A DNA stretch of 64,000 bases from Candidatus Melainabacteria bacterium. Its GTDB lineage: Bacteria; Cyanobacteriota; Vampirovibrionia; Obscuribacterales; Obscuribacteraceae. Both the position numbers and the translations under genes were made by a program. The stretch covers positions 221,240 through 285,239 of the forward strand of contig RXJR01000018.1 in assembly GCA_003963305.1 (NCBI GenBank). The letters are read 5' to 3'. Below are positions 39,155 through 49,719 of this stretch, piece after piece (positions within the stretch are counted from its first letter, which is position 1; each line of letters opens with the position of its first letter). The notes beneath the pieces are model-generated. The model saw only the letters and a program-made list of their open reading frames with translations. It searched no databases and was not told the origin of the DNA.

Positions 39155-42151
39155 CTACTTGAGCGAGATTGGTACAGTCAGGTGCAAGTCGCGTTCGCTG
39201 CCCTGACCTGGCAACATGTTCGGTATGTAGAGATCGGCTGAAGGGCTCAAGTTGTGACCGGGCACCTTGATGACGCCGTGTATTTCACCGTTTGGTGGCA
39301 CATTTTTGGATGGGAAGTTGATTTTGACTATGCGTTGAGGTTGACCGGTCATGTTGATTACGGCATTCGCGGGCGAAGGCACTGCCAGAGCGATTTTTTG
39401 ATCGTTGTGGAGGACCACATTAAGCTTGATATCGAGCGGAGATGGTTTTACTCCTTCAAGTTCGAGACGCACAGCACCCGACGATGAACTATGGTTCGTC
39501 GGAATCGGTGGCTTGAGCGCCGCTTGCAGCGCACTCTGTGTTTCCGGTGGCAGATTGGCGGCAAAAGACTGCAGTGCTGCCGCGGAGTTTGGCAGATTCG
39601 CGAGAGCTGACTGGAATCCTTCCGAGCTTGTTAACGAGGCAGGCAGTGATTGCAGAATTGTTTGCATCGATGCGCTAGCACCGTTCGGCGTCAGTGACAG
39701 AGCCTGTGCGGAGGCCTCAGATGCCTGACTGGGAAGTTGACCTGCTGCATTTTGCGGCATCATGGCCGTGAGCTGAGACAAAGGTACCTGCATAGAAGTG
39801 AAACTGGGTGCATACGGACCGGTAGTCGGCGGGGCGGACGAAGCCATCCCAATTGCTGGTGCAATAGACTGCGGGGATGCCATTCCCGTCGTCGGAGACA
39901 TGTAAGGAACCGGGCTGGCGATCGGGGTTTCCGCTTGCAATGTTGGCTGCGACTTAAGGGCGTTAAGCTGTTTCTGCGCTTCTTGCAGTTGCGATTGCAG
40001 CAATTTGTTTTGTTCTGCCAGGCTCTTGCCCTTTGCTATCGTGCCGGTTTTAGTGACTGGTTTTTTGGTTTTCAGAGCGGCCCTGGCTTGCGCCGAAAGG
40101 TTGGCCAGGTTCTCCGATGTGGCTGCCTGCGCGACGAGGGCGCCGGTCGAATCGGGAACGGCTGCTGCTGCAACTGTCTCTGTCACAGATTTTGGTGCCA
40201 CTGCGGCACTGGCGGTGGAGCCGGCCGACTGTGATGAGGTGGTCAGTGCGCCGGAACCTGCGCCGGGCAGACTTTTCGCTCCGATGCTGCCAAGCAGGCT
40301 GTTGACGCTGGCTAGATTAGAACTGGCGGACGCTAAAACCGGGCTCTGCGCGACCATGTCAGCCGGAGCTGGTCCTGACCCTGTTGCCGGTTCGGTCAAG
40401 CCTTTCAGCGCTGCATGCGCAGCATCTTCCATTTGCTGCGATTGTGCTTTTTGCTGCACGCTGTAATTTCTCAGACTGGTAAGGAAGCCCGACATGCTGG
40501 AAACTTGCGTCGTTGTGGATAATGGTGCCGGCTTCGGTATGCCTGGCAGTGACATCGCTGGCGGTGCCTCGGCGACGCCGCCGTTGAAAGCCTGCCCGGC
40601 GGTGACTGTCGTGTTTCTGAATGCTGGTGCCACTTGTGGTGTCAAGCCCGGCAAGAGCATCGCGGGAGCGGCTGCTGCCAATCCTCCTGCTGCCGCTGCT
40701 GCAGCCACGAGCCCGTTGGCACCGCCTGTGCCTGCTCCGGCCATAGCATTCATTTTTTCGCTCAGTTGAGCTTGATAGAGCTTGAAAGAACTGTCGCCAG
40801 GGCAGAGTTTGACGGCCTCTGAGACTTTGGCATGGGCTTCCTGCAGAGCCCCTGCCGCTTCCAGGTTATGCGCCGCATCAACAGCATGATGGGCTTCCTG
40901 CCTGGCTAGTGCCAGTTTAAAGCTCTGTCTTGCCGCGGGAAGATTGGCATTGTTCGGGTCTATCTCCACGACTTTTCTATACTCGGCCTGGGCTGATTGC
41001 AGATCGCCGCTCAACTGATGGGCTCTTGCCAGACCCAGGTGGCTGTTGGCGCTGTGTGGATTAGTTGTAACCTGCTTCTGCCACAAGTCGATCAGATGTT
41101 GTGACGCCACTTTGTCATTCGGGTTAACTACGAGCGCTCGGCTCAAGTCTGAATTTGCCCCGACGATATCGCTTTGACCAAGGCGGATGATGCCCATCTG
41201 CCTGAGCGCTGCGCCAGAATGCGGCTCCAGTTCGAGTGCCTTTTGATATTCGAGCCTGGCCTTCTCTTTATTGTTGTTTTTCATGGCGACGTCGCCCAAC
41301 CCGACATAGGCGTCAGCCGACGGCTTCAGCCTGTTGGCGGCGTTGAATTCCATCTCTGCGTCTGAGGTTTTGCCTTTCGCCAGCAGCGCATGAGCTGTTT
41401 TAAGCCTGTCTGGTGCGCTTTCGGCGCTCATACCCTGCTTCTTCATCACCTCAGCCAGAACCGTATGCGCGGCCTGGTTCTGGGGTTGCACCGACAGAGC
41501 CTCACGTGCCATACGACCCGCGGCGTCGATGTTCTGATCTGAGAGCAGCTGCTGGGCTCGCTGCACCGATACTTTGGCGAATTCGTTTTTCAGAGCGGTG
41601 TCGCGAGGCAGAGATTTGACATAGCTCTTGAGGAGTTCTTGAGCCTGATCCAGCTTGCCTTCTTTGATTAAATTCTGCGCCTTAACCTGTGCTTGATCCA
41701 GAAATGAAGCGACTTTAGGTGATGTTGAAGCACGTTTCAGCGTTTTCTGAACCGAGGTCGACCAGCGCTGTGGTTTCGCTGCGCCTTCTCCGCTCGTCTG
41801 TGCCGACATGTGCAAGAGGCTGGGCGGAAGCAAAGTTGGTGTGAGAGGTGGCGGTGGAGGAACCAGTCCGGTTTTGCCTGAAATTCTGCCCGACTTGTAC
41901 GACGACGGCGTCGTGTAACCAGGATCACCGTATGAGTCACCCTCGGTGCTGGCTGACTCGGCGTCGAAACGTCGGGGAATGCGTGTCGGGGGCACAAAAA
42001 CTTTCTTGGCTCGGGAAAAGTCTGCCGCCCGGCACGGCTGCATCACATGTAGTGGCGCCAGTTGCGACACGAATGCCAATCCAAGCAAAAGCGATAAAGA
42101 TTTCGCCAGGTCAATTTTTGCTGCAGGAGGTGAGATGGGTGCTTTTGCCAC
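39155..42151 (-). CDS. Large secreted TPR-repeat protein
   Basis: 998 residues, GTG start. The N-terminus has a hydrophobic signal-like stretch (LAKSLSLLLGLAFVSQLA). Residues about 130-490 hold eight to ten tetratricopeptide repeats (for instance AKNLIKEGKLDQAQELLKSYV, AYVGLGDVAMKNNNKEKARLEYQKALEL, AHQLSGDLQSAQAEYRKVVEIDPN). After that comes a 400-residue Ala/Ser/Gly/Pro-rich low-complexity region with one coiled coil (AEQNKLLQSQLQEAQKQLNAL). The last 110 residues form a beta-rich domain (SPLDIKLNVVLHNDQKIALAVP, LHLTVPISL). It probably anchors or bridges envelope proteins. Confidence 0.82.
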   Translation of the reverse strand: MAKAPISPPAAKIDLAKSLSLLLGLAFVSQLAPLHVMQPCRAADFSRAKKVFVPPTRIPRRFDAESASTEGDSYGDPGYTTPSSYKSGRISGKTGLVPPPPPLTPTLLPPSLLHMSAQTSGEGAAKPQRWSTSVQKTLKRASTSPKVASFLDQAQVKAQNLIKEGKLDQAQELLKSYVKSLPRDTALKNEFAKVSVQRAQQLLSDQNIDAAGRMAREALSVQPQNQAAHTVLAEVMKKQGMSAESAPDRLKTAHALLAKGKTSDAEMEFNAANRLKPSADAYVGLGDVAMKNNNKEKARLEYQKALELEPHSGAALRQMGIIRLGQSDIVGANSDLSRALVVNPNDKVASQHLIDLWQKQVTTNPHSANSHLGLARAHQLSGDLQSAQAEYRKVVEIDPNNANLPAARQSFKLALARQEAHHAVDAAHNLEAAGALQEAHAKVSEAVKLCPGDSSFKLYQAQLSEKMNAMAGAGTGGANGLVAAAAAAGGLAAAAPAMLLPGLTPQVAPAFRNTTVTAGQAFNGGVAEAPPAMSLPGIPKPAPLSTTTQVSSMSGFLTSLRNYSVQQKAQSQQMEDAAHAALKGLTEPATGSGPAPADMVAQSPVLASASSNLASVNSLLGSIGAKSLPGAGSGALTTSSQSAGSTASAAVAPKSVTETVAAAAVPDSTGALVAQAATSENLANLSAQARAALKTKKPVTKTGTIAKGKSLAEQNKLLQSQLQEAQKQLNALKSQPTLQAETPIASPVPYMSPTTGMASPQSIAPAIGMASSAPPTTGPYAPSFTSMQVPLSQLTAMMPQNAAGQLPSQASEASAQALSLTPNGASASMQTILQSLPASLTSSEGFQSALANLPNSAAALQSFAANLPPETQSALQAALKPPIPTNHSSSSGAVRLELEGVKPSPLDIKLNVVLHNDQKIALAVPSPANAVINMTGQPQRIVKINFPSKNVPPNGEIHGVIKVPGHNLSPSADLYIPNMLPGQGSERDLHLTVPISLK

Positions 42152-42552
42152 GAATTGTTTTCGCCCCGGAGGGGTTACTGGGTTGAACCTTGAAAATCGG
42201 CATCGCCTGAGCTATTTTAGTCACAACTTATTTACATTCCAAGGGGTAAATTACGTGTTCCACCTGGAATGTGGGTGGACTGAATTCATTCCTTGATATT
42301 CTAATAGAAGCCGCGCCAAAAGCCTCTTCAGCTACGCTGGAGTGTCAGGAATTTCGATTTTCCTTCCCGTATAAGAATATTAGGTTTATTCCATATTTGT
42401 AATCGGCCGGCACAAAAAAATGGAATTTCGCCTACACTTGGAAACGGTACGATGTGCAACTGCACGGTTTCTCCGGTGTTTTTTAGTAACCATCCGGTAG
42501 CCAGTTTCCCACTTAGCAGCCGTTGGAATCAGAAAAGACAAGGACTGAGCCT
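42152..42552. other. Intergenic region upstream of adhE
   Basis: About 400 bases between divergent genes. A perfect inverted repeat GTGCA-AC-TGCAC lies at 42454-42465, about 90 bases before the adhE ATG, and could be an operator. A longer one (TCCACC facing GGTGGA, near 42262-42284) is weaker. No Rex-type site (TTGTGAA-TTCACAA) is seen. No clear promoter hexamers were identified. Confidence 0.4.
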
Positions 42553-45174
42553 ATGACATCAACCATTAAAGACCATGACCAAGCCCTCATGGAGCGCGCA
42601 AATCATCTTGTGCGTCAGGCTCGGTTGGCGGCTGCCGTCTGGACTCAGTACACGCAGGAGCAGGTTGATGCCATCGTCAAAGCGATGACTGTAGCCGCTA
42701 TTGAGAACGTGCACAAGCTGGCCATCGCTGCTCACGAAGAGACGCGCATGGGCATGATCGAAGACAAAGTCTTGAAGAACTTTGTCGCATCAGAATTTCA
42801 CTACCATCAGATTCGCGACAAGAAGACTGTTGGCATTATTAACGAGTTTCCCGAAGAAAATATTGTGGAAGTCGCCGAACCTGTTGGCGTCATACTTGCC
42901 ATCACGCCTGTGACCAATCCTACTTCGACAGTTATTTTCAAGAGTCTGGCGGCGGCTAAAACAAGAAACAGTGTTATTTTCAGCCCTCATTTGATGGCGG
43001 CAGATTGCAGCAATCTGGCAGCAAAAATTGTTTACGAGGCTGCTCTGGCGGCAGGTGCACCAAAAGGATTCATCACCTGGGTGGAAAAATCGCCCCGGCT
43101 GCGTCGTGAGACGGAGCTGATGATGGTGCATCCGGAAGTAGATTTGATCTTTGCGACGGGTGGAACGCAGTTGGTACGGGCTGCCGCCAGCTCAGGAAAA
43201 CCTGCTCTGGGTGTAGGCTCTGGCAACACGCCGGTTTACATCCACAAATCCGCTTCATACGATTCGACGGCGATGGATGTAATTATCTCCAAGACTTTCG
43301 ACAATGGCACAGAGTGCCCTTCGGAGCAGACTCTCGTCATTGATGCCGAAGTTGCACCAGCTTTGCTCGCTGAGTTTCAGCGCCTCAACTGTCATGTCTG
43401 CAGTCTCGATGAAGTGAAAAAAGTTGCTGATGCCGTGATCGACCCTCGCACCGGCGGCATGAACTACAAGCTGGTTGGTCAGCCTGCTGATTTAATTGCT
43501 GAAAAGGCCGGCATCACCGTCAATCCTAATACGAAGATATTGTTGTGCCCGCTCGAGGGTGATTTGCGGCATCACAAGCTGGCTGTCGAAAAGCTCATGC
43601 CCGTGCTTGGTTTCGTCATCGTCAACTCAGTCGATGAGGGCATCAATCGAGCCCTGGATATCAATTATGCGGGCGGCACCGGTCACACTGCCGGTGTATT
43701 TAGCGAAGACGACAGCGTCATCGAGCGATTTGCCGATGCGATAAACGCAGGCAGAATCATCGTTAATTCGCCCACTTCAATTGGCGGCTTGGGTGGTGTT
43801 TATAACAATCTCAATACGACATTGAGTTTCGGCTGCGGAACCGGCGGCGGCAACATCACTACAGATAATGTCGGCATCAAAAATCTGCTCAACTACAAGC
43901 GTGTGCCGAGACGCAAAAACTATACCCTCACTTTCCAGACGACCAAGAACATTTACATAAACCCCGGCAGTATCGATCATCTTCGCAGCCTCAAGACTAA
44001 GTCTGCCATTGTTATAACCTCGAGGTCCGCTGCTCGCCGTGGACATCTCTCCATGGTTCTGGAAAGACTGCCTGCTGATTGCAAAGTCGACGTCTTTGGA
44101 GACGTTGGTGTTGAGCCGGATATCTCAATAGTGGAAAAGGCTGTCGCTGTCATGCGCCAGAGTCCTGTTGATACTGTCATCGCCCTTGGTGGCGGATCGG
44201 TTCTGGATGCGGCAAAAATAATTCGTCTCTTCTATGACAATCCCGGTCTCAAGTTACAAGAGTTGGCTGTTAACTTCCTCGACTTCAAGCAGAGAATCTC
44301 TGTTTTTCCTCAGGTGGTTCCAACTCAGCTGGTTGCCATTCCGACTACCTCTGGCACAGGTTCAGAAGTGACTCCTTTCGCTGTTTTGAAAGATAATGAA
44401 TCGAAGCGCAAGCTCTCTCTGGTGGATGAATGTTTGTTGCCGAACATCGCCATTATTGATGCCAATCTGACTAAGAGTTTGCCTAAGGAAATAACTGTTG
44501 ATACCGCATTTGATGCGCTCACTCATGCGCTGGAGGCTCTGGCATCAACATTCTCGTCTGATTACACTGACGGGTTGGCACTGGAGGCGATGCGCCTGAT
44601 CTTCGAAGCCTTGCCTGAAACTTTGAAAAACCCAACTCAGGTATTGTGGCGGCATAAATTGCACAACGCTGCTTGCCTGGCCGGCATGGCTATCGGAAAC
44701 GCATCCGTCGGCATCAACCATGCACTTGCTCACAGCCTGGGCGCCATGTTCGATATTCCGCATGGTAAGGCTAATGGTGTCTTTTTGCTTTCGACGCTGG
44801 AATACAACTCCAAAATTCCGCGCAAGTTCATGCCCACCTCGACTTATCCGCTCTGGGTGGCAGATCAGAAGTACGCCCGGGCTGCACAATTCCTCGGTCT
44901 CACCGATGAAGATGCGAAAAATGGCGAAACTCCATCGCGCGAAAAAATGTGTGTCCTTCTAAGACGTGCTGTTTACGATCTGGCTCGTTTAGCCGGGCAA
45001 CCACTTTCTGTTGCTGAGCTAGGGATCCCTCAGGATCAGTATGAACAGCGAATGGTTGAGCTTGTTAGAGGCAGTTTCGAAGATATGAGCATGCGCACAA
45101 ATCCGGCTCTGCCACTGATTCCTGAGGTGCTCAACTTGCTTATGACTGCATATGCGCCGCGGCAACGTCCTTAG
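42553..45174 (+). CDS. adhE: Bifunctional acetaldehyde-CoA/alcohol dehydrogenase
   Basis: 873 residues from the ATG at 42553, which has AAGGA eight bases upstream; the frame also runs back to a TTG at 42523. AdhE turns acetyl-CoA into acetaldehyde and then ethanol, regenerating NAD. The N-terminal half is an aldehyde dehydrogenase with its nucleophile in GTECPSEQ (Cys near 255). The C-terminal half is an iron alcohol dehydrogenase: ALGGGSVLDAAK, AIPTTSGTGSEVTPF, DTAFDALTHALEA and the metal-binding SVGINHALAHSLG and DIPHGKANG. This indicates mixed-acid or ethanol fermentation under low oxygen. Confidence 0.97.
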   Translation: MTSTIKDHDQALMERANHLVRQARLAAAVWTQYTQEQVDAIVKAMTVAAIENVHKLAIAAHEETRMGMIEDKVLKNFVASEFHYHQIRDKKTVGIINEFPEENIVEVAEPVGVILAITPVTNPTSTVIFKSLAAAKTRNSVIFSPHLMAADCSNLAAKIVYEAALAAGAPKGFITWVEKSPRLRRETELMMVHPEVDLIFATGGTQLVRAAASSGKPALGVGSGNTPVYIHKSASYDSTAMDVIISKTFDNGTECPSEQTLVIDAEVAPALLAEFQRLNCHVCSLDEVKKVADAVIDPRTGGMNYKLVGQPADLIAEKAGITVNPNTKILLCPLEGDLRHHKLAVEKLMPVLGFVIVNSVDEGINRALDINYAGGTGHTAGVFSEDDSVIERFADAINAGRIIVNSPTSIGGLGGVYNNLNTTLSFGCGTGGGNITTDNVGIKNLLNYKRVPRRKNYTLTFQTTKNIYINPGSIDHLRSLKTKSAIVITSRSAARRGHLSMVLERLPADCKVDVFGDVGVEPDISIVEKAVAVMRQSPVDTVIALGGGSVLDAAKIIRLFYDNPGLKLQELAVNFLDFKQRISVFPQVVPTQLVAIPTTSGTGSEVTPFAVLKDNESKRKLSLVDECLLPNIAIIDANLTKSLPKEITVDTAFDALTHALEALASTFSSDYTDGLALEAMRLIFEALPETLKNPTQVLWRHKLHNAACLAGMAIGNASVGINHALAHSLGAMFDIPHGKANGVFLLSTLEYNSKIPRKFMPTSTYPLWVADQKYARAAQFLGLTDEDAKNGETPSREKMCVLLRRAVYDLARLAGQPLSVAELGIPQDQYEQRMVELVRGSFEDMSMRTNPALPLIPEVLNLLMTAYAPRQRP

Positions 45175-45237
45175 CGCGCTAGTAATGTTTTGAGCAGTAT
45201 TGTTGAGTTCGAGTGAGATTAAAGAAGGAGTTTAAAG

Positions 45238-45567
45238 ATGAGTGGCGAGAACGCCGAACAAGCCGTAGAGGCGCGACGCAACGAAGTGCTGCAAATTGAA
45301 GGACCACTCGAGCGCGGCATCGATCATATCGATCGAACTTTAGCAACAGGTGTAAATTTAACCCTCGATTTCGCCAACTGCAAATTCATCACAGTTGACG
45401 GTCTGGAATGGCTTGAAGAGCTGCTTCTGCGTTCCGACTCACTTGGCAGTAAAGTGGTGTTCATCAATCTTGTACCGTCGGTCTACAAAGTGTTCAAAGT
45501 CGCTCACATCGATAGTCTCTTACGAGCCTGCGGCGCGCCGAGTCAGCCGACTCAGCCTTACTGTTAA
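45238..45567 (+). CDS. STAS-domain protein
   Basis: 109 residues. The ATG has a strong AAGGAG site. The single domain fits STAS (anti-sigma factor antagonist or MlaB type): NLTLDFANCKFITVDGLEWLEELLLRSDSLGSKVVFINL. In SpoIIAA-type proteins the conserved DSSGL carries the serine phosphorylated by its kinase. Here the matching segment is TVDGL, so an Asp stands where the phosphoserine would be. Regulation by phosphorylation is therefore unlikely, and a permanently on or non-signalling role is inferred. It precedes an ABC exporter by about 200 bases. Confidence 0.82.
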   Translation: MSGENAEQAVEARRNEVLQIEGPLERGIDHIDRTLATGVNLTLDFANCKFITVDGLEWLEELLLRSDSLGSKVVFINLVPSVYKVFKVAHIDSLLRACGAPSQPTQPYC

Positions 45568-45765
45568 TATGAACTTTCTCGATTGCCGTACGTCATTTCT
45601 TTAGACCAATCGATCAGATGCTGTCCCGGGCAGCGCATAATAGAATCTGCTGCACTTGTGCATTAGATCAGTCGGCAGCATGCTGCTTTATGACCTTGGG
45701 TAGGTCGGGTGGTTTTGCCCAGACTCACTCTCGAATATTGGTAACTTTGGATCTCGGACATCGCA

Positions 45766-46794
45766 TTGAACACAAGTGAAATTCGCCAACCGGCGCTGCA
45801 GACAGTTAACCTCACCAAAAAATTTGGTGATAGAACTTCGGTCAACTCGCTCAATCTAAGTGTTTATCCCGGCGAACTTTATGCGTTGCTGGGGGATAAC
45901 GGTGCAGGTAAGACAACCACCATTAATATGCTCACAACTTTGCTCACACCCACATCTGGTGAGTTTTTTATATGTGGATTGAACGGTGTTAAACAGTCTG
46001 AAAAGACCAAAGGTGCTTTTGGGATTGTGTCGCAAGACGTGGCCATTTACAACGAACTGACTGCCTATGAGAATCTGAGCTTTATCGCGGATCTTTATAA
46101 GATTCCAAAAGTTAAAGCCAGGGAGCGCATCAAAATATTATTGGAAGACGCCGGACTCACCGATCGTGCTAACGATCTGGCTGGCAGTTTTTCTGGTGGC
46201 ATGCAGCGCAAACTCACCATTGCCGGTGCTCTGTTGCATGAGCCGAAGGTGTTGTTTATGGACGAGCCTACGGTGGGTCTGGATCCTGCTTCCAGGCGAC
46301 AGATCTGGACTTCGCTGAAGGCTCTGAAAAATCAAGGTGTGGCAGTTCTTTTGACGACGCATTATCTTGAAGAAGCAGAATTGCTCTCGGATCGTATCGG
46401 CATCATCAGGCGCGGAACGCTTGTGGCAGAAGGGACGATTGACGACTTGCGGCATAAGATTCAGGGGATTCGCAGCATCGCGATTCGATTGACTCGTGAT
46501 ATCGATGAAGATCAATTGCTGTCTAAACTGGAAAAGTTGAAAATGAAGTTTCCGGTAGAAGTTAAGCGGGACGTATTGCGCAACACCATATCATTTGCTC
46601 AGCCGCAAGATGGAAAGCTTGTGCGCAGCCTTTACCAGGTGCTGAGCTGGTTGGAAGAAGAGGAAGTTCCATTCTCCAGATTTGCAACGAGCGAACCTAA
46701 TCTTGAGGAAGTTTTTCTTGCCGTTGCTTCTACAAAAGATGACATTGATACTGAAAAGCTTGGTGAGGAAGAAGCCGATGAAGACTTCAATTAA
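45766..46794 (+). CDS. ABC-2 type transporter, ATP-binding protein
   Basis: 342 residues, TTG start. A complete ABC ATPase: Walker A GDNGAGKTT, signature FSGGMQRKL, Walker B VLFMDEPTVGLDP, and the H-loop TTHYLEEAE. The class (DrrA/CcmA-like with a C-terminal extension of about 90 residues) drives ABC-2 exporters. The permease follows after 100 bases, and an MlaC-family protein follows that. The combination points to export or trafficking of a lipid or hydrophobic compound. Substrate unknown. Confidence 0.93.
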   Translation: MNTSEIRQPALQTVNLTKKFGDRTSVNSLNLSVYPGELYALLGDNGAGKTTTINMLTTLLTPTSGEFFICGLNGVKQSEKTKGAFGIVSQDVAIYNELTAYENLSFIADLYKIPKVKARERIKILLEDAGLTDRANDLAGSFSGGMQRKLTIAGALLHEPKVLFMDEPTVGLDPASRRQIWTSLKALKNQGVAVLLTTHYLEEAELLSDRIGIIRRGTLVAEGTIDDLRHKIQGIRSIAIRLTRDIDEDQLLSKLEKLKMKFPVEVKRDVLRNTISFAQPQDGKLVRSLYQVLSWLEEEEVPFSRFATSEPNLEEVFLAVASTKDDIDTEKLGEEEADEDFN

Positions 46795-46819
46795 GCGAAC
46801 GTTTTGTCGACGCAGGGCA

Positions 46820-46883
46820 CAGAGAGCCACGAGATAAGAGCAAAGAGCAAGAGCAGAGAGCAAAGAGAAAAGAGAAAAGAGAT
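46820..46883 (+). repeat. Purine-rich slippage repeat between ATPase and permease genes
   Basis: About 64 bases almost only of A and G with repeated AGAGCAA, AGAGAAA and AAGAG units, in the gap between the exporter genes. It ends about ten bases before the GTG of the permease and is the only purine-rich stretch that could bind the ribosome there. Confidence 0.65.
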
Positions 46884-46894
46884 TAAAATCAAAC

Positions 46895-47938
46895 GTGCGA
46901 CAGATACTGGCTATCATCAATAAGGATATATTGCAGTGGACGAGGCGTCCGCTCTATTTCATTTCGAGCATCTTGCTTGCCGTCTTGATCATCGCCGTGG
47001 TTGGTAACACGCTGTCGGGTGCTACGAGCATTCCCTTTGGTGTATATGATCCTGCCGGCATCAGTGATTTGAGCAAAGGTCTTGAAGATACCCATCAATT
47101 TATTGTTTCCAATTATGATGACCTGGAAAAGGCCAAACAGGATATCACTACAGGCAAAATCGTCGCCCTGGCAAACGTCTCGCAGGACCCGCTTGAGGAT
47201 TCAGTGCAGATTTTGACGGATGGACACAATCCCTTTGTCGACAACCAGATTTCGATGGGGCTTTTGAAGGTCCTGACACAGAAGAATAAAACTCTCAGCA
47301 TCCCGCTTAGGACGTCTGCCTTGTTTCCTCTGAACATTACTTTGAGAGACTTTGTTACGCCCGGATTGGCTGCTTATCTCTGTTATGTTCTTGCGTCCAT
47401 GAATCTTGGATTTTCATGGATTTATGAATGGATGGAGAAGACTTATCGGCAGATTATTCTGGCGCCAAACGGTCTGCAATCTGCCATTATCGCCAAAAGT
47501 TTGACTGTAACGATTGAAGCTTCTGTTGTTTTATGGATCGCCCTCTGCCTGACCGCTCCATTCAGCGGTTTCACTCTTGGCTCTAATTTCGTCGGGCTTG
47601 TCGCCACAACCCTGGTTTCTGTTTTTTCCTTTACTTGTCTGGGACTGGCGGCAGCCTGTTTGCTCAAAACTATTCGCATCTACACGATGACGGTTTCAAT
47701 CGCTGGTGTGGCGCTTATGTTCGCCAGCGGTATCATTATTCCATTAGAGGCGATGCCAAAATGGGAACAATTTTGTGCGCTAGCTCTTCCAATGTATTAC
47801 TCCGCTGACGCCTTTAAAGGCGTGATGTTGGGTATCCCGGCAGATTATTTACGAGATGTCGGTGTTTTGCTGGGATGGGCAGTAATAGGACTGGTTTTCT
47901 CTTCGATACTTCTGTACCAACGCAAAGCCGCACTCTAA
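46895..47938 (+). CDS. ABC-2 type transporter permease
   Basis: 347 residues, GTG start. Membrane plan of ABC-2 permeases: one segment near 18-40 (FISSILLAVLIIAVVGNTL), a periplasmic loop of about 120 residues, then five segments from about 155 to the end, including a typical LMFASGIIIPLEAMPKW before the last two. It forms the channel with the upstream ATPase. The gene after it starts 19 bases later. Confidence 0.9.
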   Translation: MRQILAIINKDILQWTRRPLYFISSILLAVLIIAVVGNTLSGATSIPFGVYDPAGISDLSKGLEDTHQFIVSNYDDLEKAKQDITTGKIVALANVSQDPLEDSVQILTDGHNPFVDNQISMGLLKVLTQKNKTLSIPLRTSALFPLNITLRDFVTPGLAAYLCYVLASMNLGFSWIYEWMEKTYRQIILAPNGLQSAIIAKSLTVTIEASVVLWIALCLTAPFSGFTLGSNFVGLVATTLVSVFSFTCLGLAAACLLKTIRIYTMTVSIAGVALMFASGIIIPLEAMPKWEQFCALALPMYYSADAFKGVMLGIPADYLRDVGVLLGWAVIGLVFSSILLYQRKAAL

Positions 47939-47957
47939 TCGGAAGGAGCTTCAATAA

Positions 47958-48575
47958 ATGCTGAATCGAACGGGCAAACCGGCAGGAGTGTTGGGAGCTA
48001 TGCTTGCCGCCGCCATTGTTTCTGCAAGCCCCGCATCCGCGCTCGAGCCGGCCTTTTTATCCGTTCAAAATATCGTCAATGTTTTCTCCGCGCCTGCAGC
48101 GAACTCGTTCAAGAAGGCGGAAAATTACATCGATTATGACGCAATGTCCCAGCGCTCTCTTGGTTCCTCGCAGTGGTCTAAATTGACTGCCAAGCAGAAA
48201 CATGATTATGTGGCGGCACTGAAATCCTTAATGGAGCAGCGGTATTACCCGCGATGGCATCGGATCTTCTCCCGAGCGAAAGTGGAGTATCTTTCGAAGT
48301 CGACTGATGGCGGCGATCTGCTTGTTAAGACCAATCTGGTCGTAGGCAAAAAGCGAGACGCTATGACCTGGCGGCTTAATGATCACAACGACAAAGTCGT
48401 CAGTCTGGCAATTGGAGAGAAGGATCTTCTTGATCGGTTAACTCATAGGCTACAACCAAAATTAAAGAAAAACGGATTCCAGGCAATGTTGGCTTGGATG
48501 CAGAACCACGCACAAGGTGAGGAGTCGGCAACCCAGACCAGTTCAGCAGAATCAGTGCTGGGTGAGTCTCGCTGA
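47958..48575 (+). CDS. MlaC/Ttg2D-family periplasmic lipid-binding protein
   Basis: 205 residues. A signal peptide (GVLGAMLAAAIVSASPASA) is followed by the MlaC fold: YIDYDAMSQRSLGSSQW, LTAKQKHDYVAALKSLMEQRYYPRW, VKTNLVVGKKRDAMTWRL. MlaC proteins carry phospholipids (or hopanoids, HpnM) across the periplasm, usually paired with an MlaFED transporter. Here the partner is an ABC-2 exporter with no MCE protein nearby. The ribosome site GGAAGGAG is strong. It probably works with the two genes before it, 19 bases apart. Confidence 0.87.
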   Translation: MLNRTGKPAGVLGAMLAAAIVSASPASALEPAFLSVQNIVNVFSAPAANSFKKAENYIDYDAMSQRSLGSSQWSKLTAKQKHDYVAALKSLMEQRYYPRWHRIFSRAKVEYLSKSTDGGDLLVKTNLVVGKKRDAMTWRLNDHNDKVVSLAIGEKDLLDRLTHRLQPKLKKNGFQAMLAWMQNHAQGEESATQTSSAESVLGESR

Positions 48576-48711: not shown

Positions 48712-49263
48712 ATGACAGCAGTAAATGACACTAACGAGTTTGCCGCGGACATCGCAGAAATCAGACGCCGCGCCCGTGAACACATGGAAGATGGACCGGT
48801 GACCAATGCTTATGGTGCAGACCGCATTAAAGTTGTAAAGCTTTTGAACGAGGCTCTGGCGACTGAGCTTGTCTGCGTGCTTCGCTATAAACGCCACCAC
48901 TTCATGGTTCGCGGTATCAATTCTGAGTCTGTAGCAGAAGAGTTTCTCGAACATGCCAACGAAGAGCAAGAGCATGCTGATCAGATTGCTGAGCGCATCA
49001 CGCAACTCAACGGTGAGCCTGATATGAATCCTGATGTTCTCAGCAAGCGAAGTCATGCGCAATATGTCGAAGGCAAGGATACGCTCGATATGATCAAGGA
49101 AAACCTCGTGGCCGAGCGCATAGCTATTGATTCATACAAGCAGATGATTCTCTACATTGGTGAGAAGGATCCGACAACACGACGCTTGCTCGAGTCGATT
49201 CTGGAGAAGGAAGAGGAGCACGCCGATGACATGGCTAACCTCCTCAGTTCGCACAGCAAGTAA
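48712..49263 (+). CDS. Ferritin-like protein (bacterioferritin type)
   Basis: 183 residues with strong GAAGGAG upstream. A four-helix bundle with the two iron-binding patterns of the ferritin-like family: ATELVCVLRYKRHH, then EHANEEQEHADQIAERI, and later ERIAIDSYKQMI and EKEEEHADDMANLL. Each of the latter gives an Glu-x-x-His pair at a di-iron site. The sequence is like the bacterioferritin/Dps-related stress ferritins. It would store iron or detoxify peroxide in the cytoplasm. It lacks a visible haem-binding Met, so haem binding cannot be claimed. Confidence 0.87.
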   Translation: MTAVNDTNEFAADIAEIRRRAREHMEDGPVTNAYGADRIKVVKLLNEALATELVCVLRYKRHHFMVRGINSESVAEEFLEHANEEQEHADQIAERITQLNGEPDMNPDVLSKRSHAQYVEGKDTLDMIKENLVAERIAIDSYKQMILYIGEKDPTTRRLLESILEKEEEHADDMANLLSSHSK

Positions 49264-49380
49264 GGCGCAACATATAGCGGCTTTCCCTCGTTTTCGGTCG
49301 CGGCACTTGCTCGCTTGCCTTTTTGCAGGTTGGCTCGAGCATTGTGCTTGCCGAGCTTCGTTTTTGGGTATTATGGAAAC

Positions 49381-49719
49381 ATGGATAGCATCGCATCAGA
49401 AGAAACGCAAGTATCCGCTCGAGACAACCTCGTGCAGCATTTGCGTTACTACAAGTCCAAGCATCGCAGCAGGGGCTGCAAGATCACGCACATGATCGGT
49501 ATCCCTATGATAGTGCTTGCCTGGTTGAGCCTTCCGTTCAGTCGCAAAGCATTTTTTCAATTGCACACCGGTGGCTGGATTTTGCAATTTATCGGGCACT
49601 TCGTTTTCGAGCATAATAAGCCTGTAATTCTTGAAGTTCGAGATCCAAAAACGGTGGTGTCTGCTCTTATCTTTGTGTGCGAAGAGTGGCGTCGTCTGCT
49701 CAATGGCGAAGATCTCTAA
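49381..49719 (+). CDS. Mpo1-like (DUF962) membrane protein
   Basis: 112 residues from the ATG at 49381; the longer frame starts at 49315 and adds a sequence not expected in the family. DUF962/Mpo1 features are present: HLRYYKSKHRSRGCKITHMIGIPMIVLAWLSLPF and GWILQFIGHFVFEHNKP, with two or three hydrophobic segments and the conserved His residues. The yeast member Mpo1 is an iron-dependent dioxygenase acting on 2-hydroxy fatty acids. The bacterial function is not established. It lies next to the convergent terminator. Confidence 0.82.
   Translation: MDSIASEETQVSARDNLVQHLRYYKSKHRSRGCKITHMIGIPMIVLAWLSLPFSRKAFFQLHTGGWILQFIGHFVFEHNKPVILEVRDPKTVVSALIFVCEEWRRLLNGEDL

Follow-up and report, generated by a model that had tools for sequence, protein, structure and literature searches.

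The best described setting of MlaC is the Mla pathway of E. coli and other Proteobacteria, made up of MlaA, MlaC and MlaFEDB, and the protein is usually seen as a dedicated shuttle of this MCE-based machine and as a proteobacterial add-on. Excerpts of a survey of 1083 genomes, made with the same Pfam models as were used here, describe MlaABC as 'totally absent in diderm Terrabacteria' (PMC10665443). Lipid export is known for ATP-binding cassette (ABC) transporters of the ABCG, ABCA and ABCH types. TcABCH-9C, of the ABCH type, is described as a homodimer through which lipids or lipophilic insecticides are squeezed out of the cell membrane (PMC12578276). The window analysed here, a stretch of 64,000 nucleotides from Candidatus Melainabacteria bacterium (assembly GCA_003963305.1, contig RXJR01000018.1), belongs to a genome of 7.48 Mb in 44 contigs from the order Obscuribacterales, and carries an open reading frame (ORF) of the MlaC family directly behind the ATPase and permease of an ABC-2 exporter. 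We put a probability of about 0.6 on the reading that these three genes, hereafter the trio, encode an MCE-free lipid exporter in which a permease resembling those of ABCG, ABCA and ABCH transporters hands its substrate to soluble MlaC.

An MlaC-family carrier beside an ABC-2 exporter

The assignment of the carrier ORF to MlaC is solid. It matches PF05494 with 50 bits (cut-off 26), as do all 30 aligned homologues, and a profile search of the PDB returned three MlaC-type entries below 1e-4 (8dte, 2e-8; 2qgu, 3e-8; 11hy, 1e-5). The predicted model has a mean predicted local distance difference test score (pLDDT) of 81.7, and its twelve best structural matches, several of them titled as lipid-bound, are all of the MlaC/Ttg2D type, with Z falling from 18.2 to 9.7 before the next row at 8.2; 8dte leads (Z 18.2, 2.2 Å over 156 residues), ahead of 2qgu (Z 16.7) and E. 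coli MlaC (Z 15.8). By eye the N-terminus is signal-peptide-like, the mature fold spanning approximately residues 29-190. No other MlaC was found in the same genome.

Relatives were sampled as 79 genomes, 51 of the same order (including that of the window) and 28 from other orders of the class. Of these, 35 have MlaC, all of them Obscuribacterales (35/51), which contrasts with the absence reported by the survey. The permease, scored as present at E<=1e-60, occurs in 36 genomes, namely the same 35 and G044, whose contig ends 8 bases past the permease match. Among the other 34 genomes with MlaC, 33 have ATPase, permease and MlaC in this order on one contig, and in the remaining one (G042) the genes lie at the ends of two contigs; with the order kept in 33 of 34 and the last case split by contig ends, the arrangement is not due to chance. 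Spacing was read from 25 named loci found with the MlaC alignment, labelled as Obscuribacterales, 'Melainabacteria' or 'Cyanobacteria bacterium SZAS-4', with a few 'bacterium' and one 'Proteobacteria bacterium'. ATPase and permease are separated by no more than 15 bases, and often overlap, in all 23 measurable cases, and permease and MlaC by no more than 76 bases in 21 of 24.

The distribution of the trio within the order also points to joint inheritance. On a tree of AdhE, the upstream neighbour, presence and absence of the trio require five changes, against a mean of 12.6 when states are shuffled, and none of 500 shuffles gave a number as low (the tree has 45 rows, of which 29 were scored with the trio and 15 without, 44 in all; G031 is stateless, and rows lacking a readable AdhE were omitted). 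A single gain at the base of the order and four losses would account for this pattern. At least one absence is a true deletion, since G018 retains, behind an intact AdhE-STAS pair, remnants of the beginning of the ATPase gene and of the end of the MlaC gene, both disrupted and lying in different frames (L105, 5951-6700). That ATPase, permease and MlaC constitute one unit is thus well supported by their families, the MlaC fold, their fixed linkage, and their joint presence and joint loss, all of which can be read from the sequences. The initial annotation, made on the window alone, had proposed a pathway in which an MlaC-family carrier goes with an ABC-2 exporter and not with MlaE or MCE proteins; the conservation of MlaC beside the exporter in relatives bears this out and shows the tie to be stable.

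The pairing was also sought outside the order. A tblastn search of plasmids with MlaC gave a single chance match (E 7), and PF05494 was found in two of 386 genomes of a phylum sample, one being that of the window and the other a sub-threshold match inside an 808-amino-acid frame. The contig scan beyond the order relied on the motif [YF]Y[PRK]RW[HR][KR][ILV]F, which is typical of this MlaC family, so ordinary MlaC lay out of its reach. No published pairing of MlaC with an ABC-2 exporter was found in the literature searched, most subscription journals being outside the reach of that search.

HpnM of hopanoid clusters is a relative of MlaC and shares its Pfam family, and the initial annotation had entertained hopanoid movement. 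The HpnM model does match the ORF weakly, but its score (20.5 bits) is far below the cut-off of 160.1, and squalene-hopene cyclase (TIGR01507) exceeds its cut-off in none of the 79 genomes, with two sub-threshold fragments in genomes other than that of the window. A hopanoid route is rejected on these grounds.

An ABC2_membrane permease together with an ABC ATPase defines an ABC-2 (type V) exporter, and both are present. The ATPase matches ABC_tran with 107 bits (cut-off 25) and the DrrA model TIGR01188 with 294.4 bits, slightly short of the cut-off of 312.45. The permease matches ABC2_membrane_3 with 82 bits (cut-off 31.6), has a mean column identity of 71% over 24 homologues, and carries a domain of some 110 residues between the first transmembrane helix (TM1) and the remainder of the protein. 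Its best PDB profile matches are KpsM (E 7e-4) and insect ABCH (E 1e-3), and its predicted model is closest to ABCH-9C, whose structure was determined with ceramide (Z 21.9, root-mean-square deviation (rmsd) 10.9 Å, 332 residues), followed by ABCG5/G8 (Z 20.1, 3.9 Å, 245 residues), ABCG1 (Z 19.5), ABCA4 (Z 19.0) and ABCA1 (Z 17.9). The locus thus shares with ABCG and ABCA lipid exporters and with insect TcABCH-9C the permease fold and the domain between TM1 and TM2, but differs in that ATPase and permease are separate genes and in having a soluble MlaC partner.

A tblastn search of plasmids with the permease gave 14 records, and the two examined, on plasmids of Nostoc and Sphingobium, are both HlyD-type efflux operons, which we take to be YbhFSR-like. 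These resemble the trio in combining a permease of the ABC-2 family with a periplasmic partner, but they have an HlyD adaptor and two permeases where the locus has an MlaC carrier and one permease. No HlyD was seen among the nine window proteins scanned with Pfam. By analogy, MlaC would fill the place held by HlyD in these nearest plasmid operons.

Table 1. The trio and the two genes upstream of it (window positions).
Feature	Position	Strand	Remarks
AdhE, bifunctional aldehyde-alcohol dehydrogenase, 883 amino acids	42523..45174	+	Pfam Aldedh and Fe-ADH; constant upstream neighbour, outside the transporter
STAS protein, 109 amino acids	45238..45567	+	goes with AdhE; C-terminal Cys invariant; Val in the column that usually holds the phospho-acceptor
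Exporter ABC ATPase (DrrA-like), 342 amino acids	45766..46794	+	ABC_tran, TIGR01188
ABC-2 permease, 347 amino acids	46895..47938	+	ABC2_membrane_3; periplasmic domain between TM1 and TM2
MlaC-family periplasmic carrier, 205 amino acids	47958..48575	+	PF05494; starts about 20 bases past the permease

Two features flank these genes. Upstream of AdhE lies a gene for a divergent TPR protein of 998 amino acids (39155-42151, - strand), which is also present in most relatives whose stretch extends that far. Ferritin-like and Mpo1-like genes follow MlaC (48712-49719), and of the relatives whose stretches were fetched, G001 and G015 alone showed both.

The STAS protein as a neighbour of AdhE

The initial annotation had placed four genes in order at 45238-48575, and STAS, ATPase, permease and MlaC do follow one another there on the + strand. 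It had also taken the first of them as an equivalent of MlaB. The STAS signal of the window protein is weak (21.2 bits, cut-off 22.6), though each of the 25 aligned homologues reaches E<=0.01 with the STAS model. A four-gene Mla variant, with the STAS protein acting as MlaB on the ATPase, would agree with the position of STAS directly before the ATPase and with its occurrence upstream in 28 of the 35 MlaC stretches that were fetched; the two genes are within 100 bases of each other in 10 of 21 loci, a result that goes against separating STAS from the trio. However, the distance exceeds 100 bases in the other 11, reaching 4.5 kb, whereas the gap between AdhE and STAS does not exceed 69 bases in any of 20 named loci, and in G010 the AdhE-STAS pair and the trio are several kb apart on the same contig.

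The genomes that do not have the trio bear on this as well. AdhE is followed directly by STAS, and then by at least 4 kb of further sequence with no exporter, in 10 of 10 readable trio-less loci of the order. This count derives from the 15 genomes of the order that do not have the permease, in 11 of which the AdhE locus was read; G031 ends at AdhE, leaving the ten, and outside the count stand the trio-less G002, G005, G016, G031 and G041, where the AdhE locus is absent, cut off or not read. The pair also recurs outside the order, in all five genomes of family f7, which has no trio, and was not seen in the seven loci read from families f5 and f6.

Sequence conservation agrees with gene order. 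According to excerpts of PMC7367683, the column of the TM1442 DSAG serine is broadly conserved as Ser or Thr in STAS proteins, and replacement of MlaB Thr52 by Ala was reported to be non-functional; by our own reading, Thr52 falls in that column. All 25 STAS homologues have Val there. Because STAS stays behind AdhE without the trio, and because the pair recurs in f7, we regard it as a neighbour of AdhE and probably not as an MlaB, a role that both this synteny and the Val in the motif column speak against; the four-gene variant seems to us scarcely credible. Of the four-gene order first described, the part from ATPase to MlaC is therefore conserved while STAS goes with AdhE, and in the mechanism that we favour STAS would have no part. 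Both in the order and in f7 it looks like an unknown partner or regulator of AdhE. The family has further hallmarks, namely an invariant C-terminal Cys (25/25 aligned) and an invariant YKV motif (window 42523-45567; relatives L036-L070, L101-L114 and L120-L122).

The constancy of AdhE raises another possibility, that the trio exports a drug, solvent or fermentation product in connection with AdhE, the MlaC-like protein serving as a periplasmic adaptor or as a sponge for lipophilic toxicants. The fixed place of the trio behind AdhE, an ATPase nearest to DrrA, and the HlyD-type efflux operons at the two plasmid loci with the nearest permeases would all suit such an exporter. AdhE is nevertheless found in 58 of 79 genomes, a wider distribution than that of the trio and one that includes genomes without the transporter, and the AdhE-STAS pair persists without an exporter in every readable trio-less locus, which disfavours AdhE as a functional partner. 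Given also the distance between pair and trio in G010 and the absence of HlyD from the window proteins scanned, we consider a drug or solvent exporter of this kind rather unlikely.

MCE, MlaE and MlaA in the same genomes

No MCE protein was found in the trio cluster among the nine window proteins scanned, and the permease is of the ABC2_membrane_3 type, not the MlaE type. The same genome nevertheless encodes two MCE and two MlaE proteins on contigs other than that of the trio, so that the annotated lack of MCE holds for the cluster but not for the genome, and the notion that permease and MCE had been replaced is not borne out, both MCE and MlaE having persisted. Looking for mlaD/mlaE and hpn genes elsewhere in the genome had been proposed; the former are present on other contigs, and on the hopanoid side no hopene cyclase passed its cut-off. 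A complete mlaFEDB with its own MlaC elsewhere had been named as a finding that would speak against the proposal; what the genome has is a MlaE-MlaF-MCE operon that contains no MlaC. A second MlaE-MCE pair (G000:C7:28-31 kb, L072) is not accompanied by an ATPase gene in the neighbouring ORFs that were read, and may borrow MlaF from that operon, on C8.

An operon without its own MlaC invites the explanation that the carrier serves it in trans, in the manner of canonical Mla, and stands beside the exporter through shared regulation or by chance; excerpts of a report on C. jejuni indicate that MlaC may indeed lie apart from mlaEFD (PMC6549495). The distributions argue otherwise. MCE proteins occur in 75 of 79 genomes, including all 15 trio-less genomes of the order, whereas MlaC occurs only with the exporter, and the four genomes without MCE all carry MlaC, so MCE does not track MlaC. 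Moreover, both MCE proteins of this genome are long, at 436 and 447 amino acids, and the survey excerpts state that long, beta-barrel-type MlaD, a form that is putative here, tends to accompany the absence of MlaA and MlaC (PMC10665443). With MlaC following the exporter and MCE distributed independently, a partnership in trans is disfavoured and we hold it to be improbable. In having MlaE-MlaF with a long MCE protein, the genome resembles the Veillonella type of MlaEFD as described in the same excerpts; that type has no MlaC, however, and here MlaE-MlaF-MCE forms a separate locus while MlaC sits with another transporter.

MlaA was found in none of the 51 genomes of the order. The trio thus shares with the Mla pathway the family and fold of MlaC and an ABC ATPase in the cluster, but it has an ABC-2 permease in place of MlaE, no MlaD/MCE, no MlaA in the order and a STAS protein that gene order does not tie to the ATPase; with MCE, MlaE and MlaA missing from it, we do not file the unit as an Mla system. 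LpxC is present in 72 of 79 genomes, that of the window included, a distribution that does not follow that of the trio, and lipopolysaccharide was dropped as a covariate.

A separate observation concerns family f5, where five of six genomes (G053, G063, G068, G073 and G077) carry a MlaA domain (E ~1e-43) in frames of 707-720 amino acids, and in four of the five an MCE match lies no more than 20 kb away on that contig. This contrasts with the absence of MlaA from diderm Terrabacteria reported in the survey excerpts (PMC10665443).

A proposed outward route

Under the reading that we favour, two copies each of ATPase and permease would form a type-V exporter of the ABCG/ABCA/ABCH kind, which would lift a lipid or other lipophilic molecule from the inner membrane. 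The soluble, periplasmic MlaC-fold protein would accept this molecule from the periplasmic domain of the permease, with neither an HlyD adaptor nor an MCE ring, and would ferry it towards the outer membrane, much as LolA serves LolCDE and apoA-I serves ABCA1. Direct contact between MlaC and permease, the lipid nature of the substrate, suggested by the modelled permease fold, and the outward direction are what we infer.

Several observations weigh against this reading. The relatives of DrrA, to which the ATPase is nearest, export drugs as well as lipids, and drugs too are exported by ABCG, ABCH and ABCA relatives. With a mean pLDDT of 70 the permease model is of middling quality, and the superposition on its best match is loose, as the rmsd of 10.9 Å indicates. 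In G022, 2.36 kb with a TPR gene on the reverse strand separate permease from MlaC, and a second MlaC (L061, G022:C128) stands solo on another contig with no transporter beside it. The four genomes without MCE are only 65-88% complete, and these absences may therefore be gaps. Finally, no outer-membrane receptor was found, MlaA being absent from the order.

The opposite direction has also to be considered, in which MlaC would collect lipid at the outer membrane for reinsertion by the ABC-2 complex, as the survey excerpts describe canonical Mla as mainly retrograde (PMC10665443). Such an inward route sits poorly with a permease fold of the exporter type and with an order that has no MlaA, and appears to us very unlikely. 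Returning to outward export, a more specific version can be put forward tentatively, as a possibility that we would not yet favour: that in Obscuribacterales an exporter like ABCA1 or Lol loads MlaC in an MCE-free shuttle that delivers lipid to the outer membrane, with the other job falling to the resident MlaEFD bridge.

Because this lineage gains and loses MlaC jointly with an ABC-2 exporter that has the fold of lipid exporters, independently of MCE, coupling to MCE is not obligatory for the carrier. If the proposed handover is correct, MlaC would here work with an inner-membrane partner of a new kind, and the diderm Terrabacteria, for which the survey excerpts report no MlaC, would have their first MlaC system in the trio (PMC10665443). 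A system of three proteins would also offer a simple setting in which to approach the disputed direction of MlaC-mediated lipid transport in vitro. For these non-photosynthetic relatives of cyanobacteria, an ABC exporter of lipid-exporter fold, joined to a carrier that normally belongs to another machine, hints at a separate route for lipids out through the envelope.

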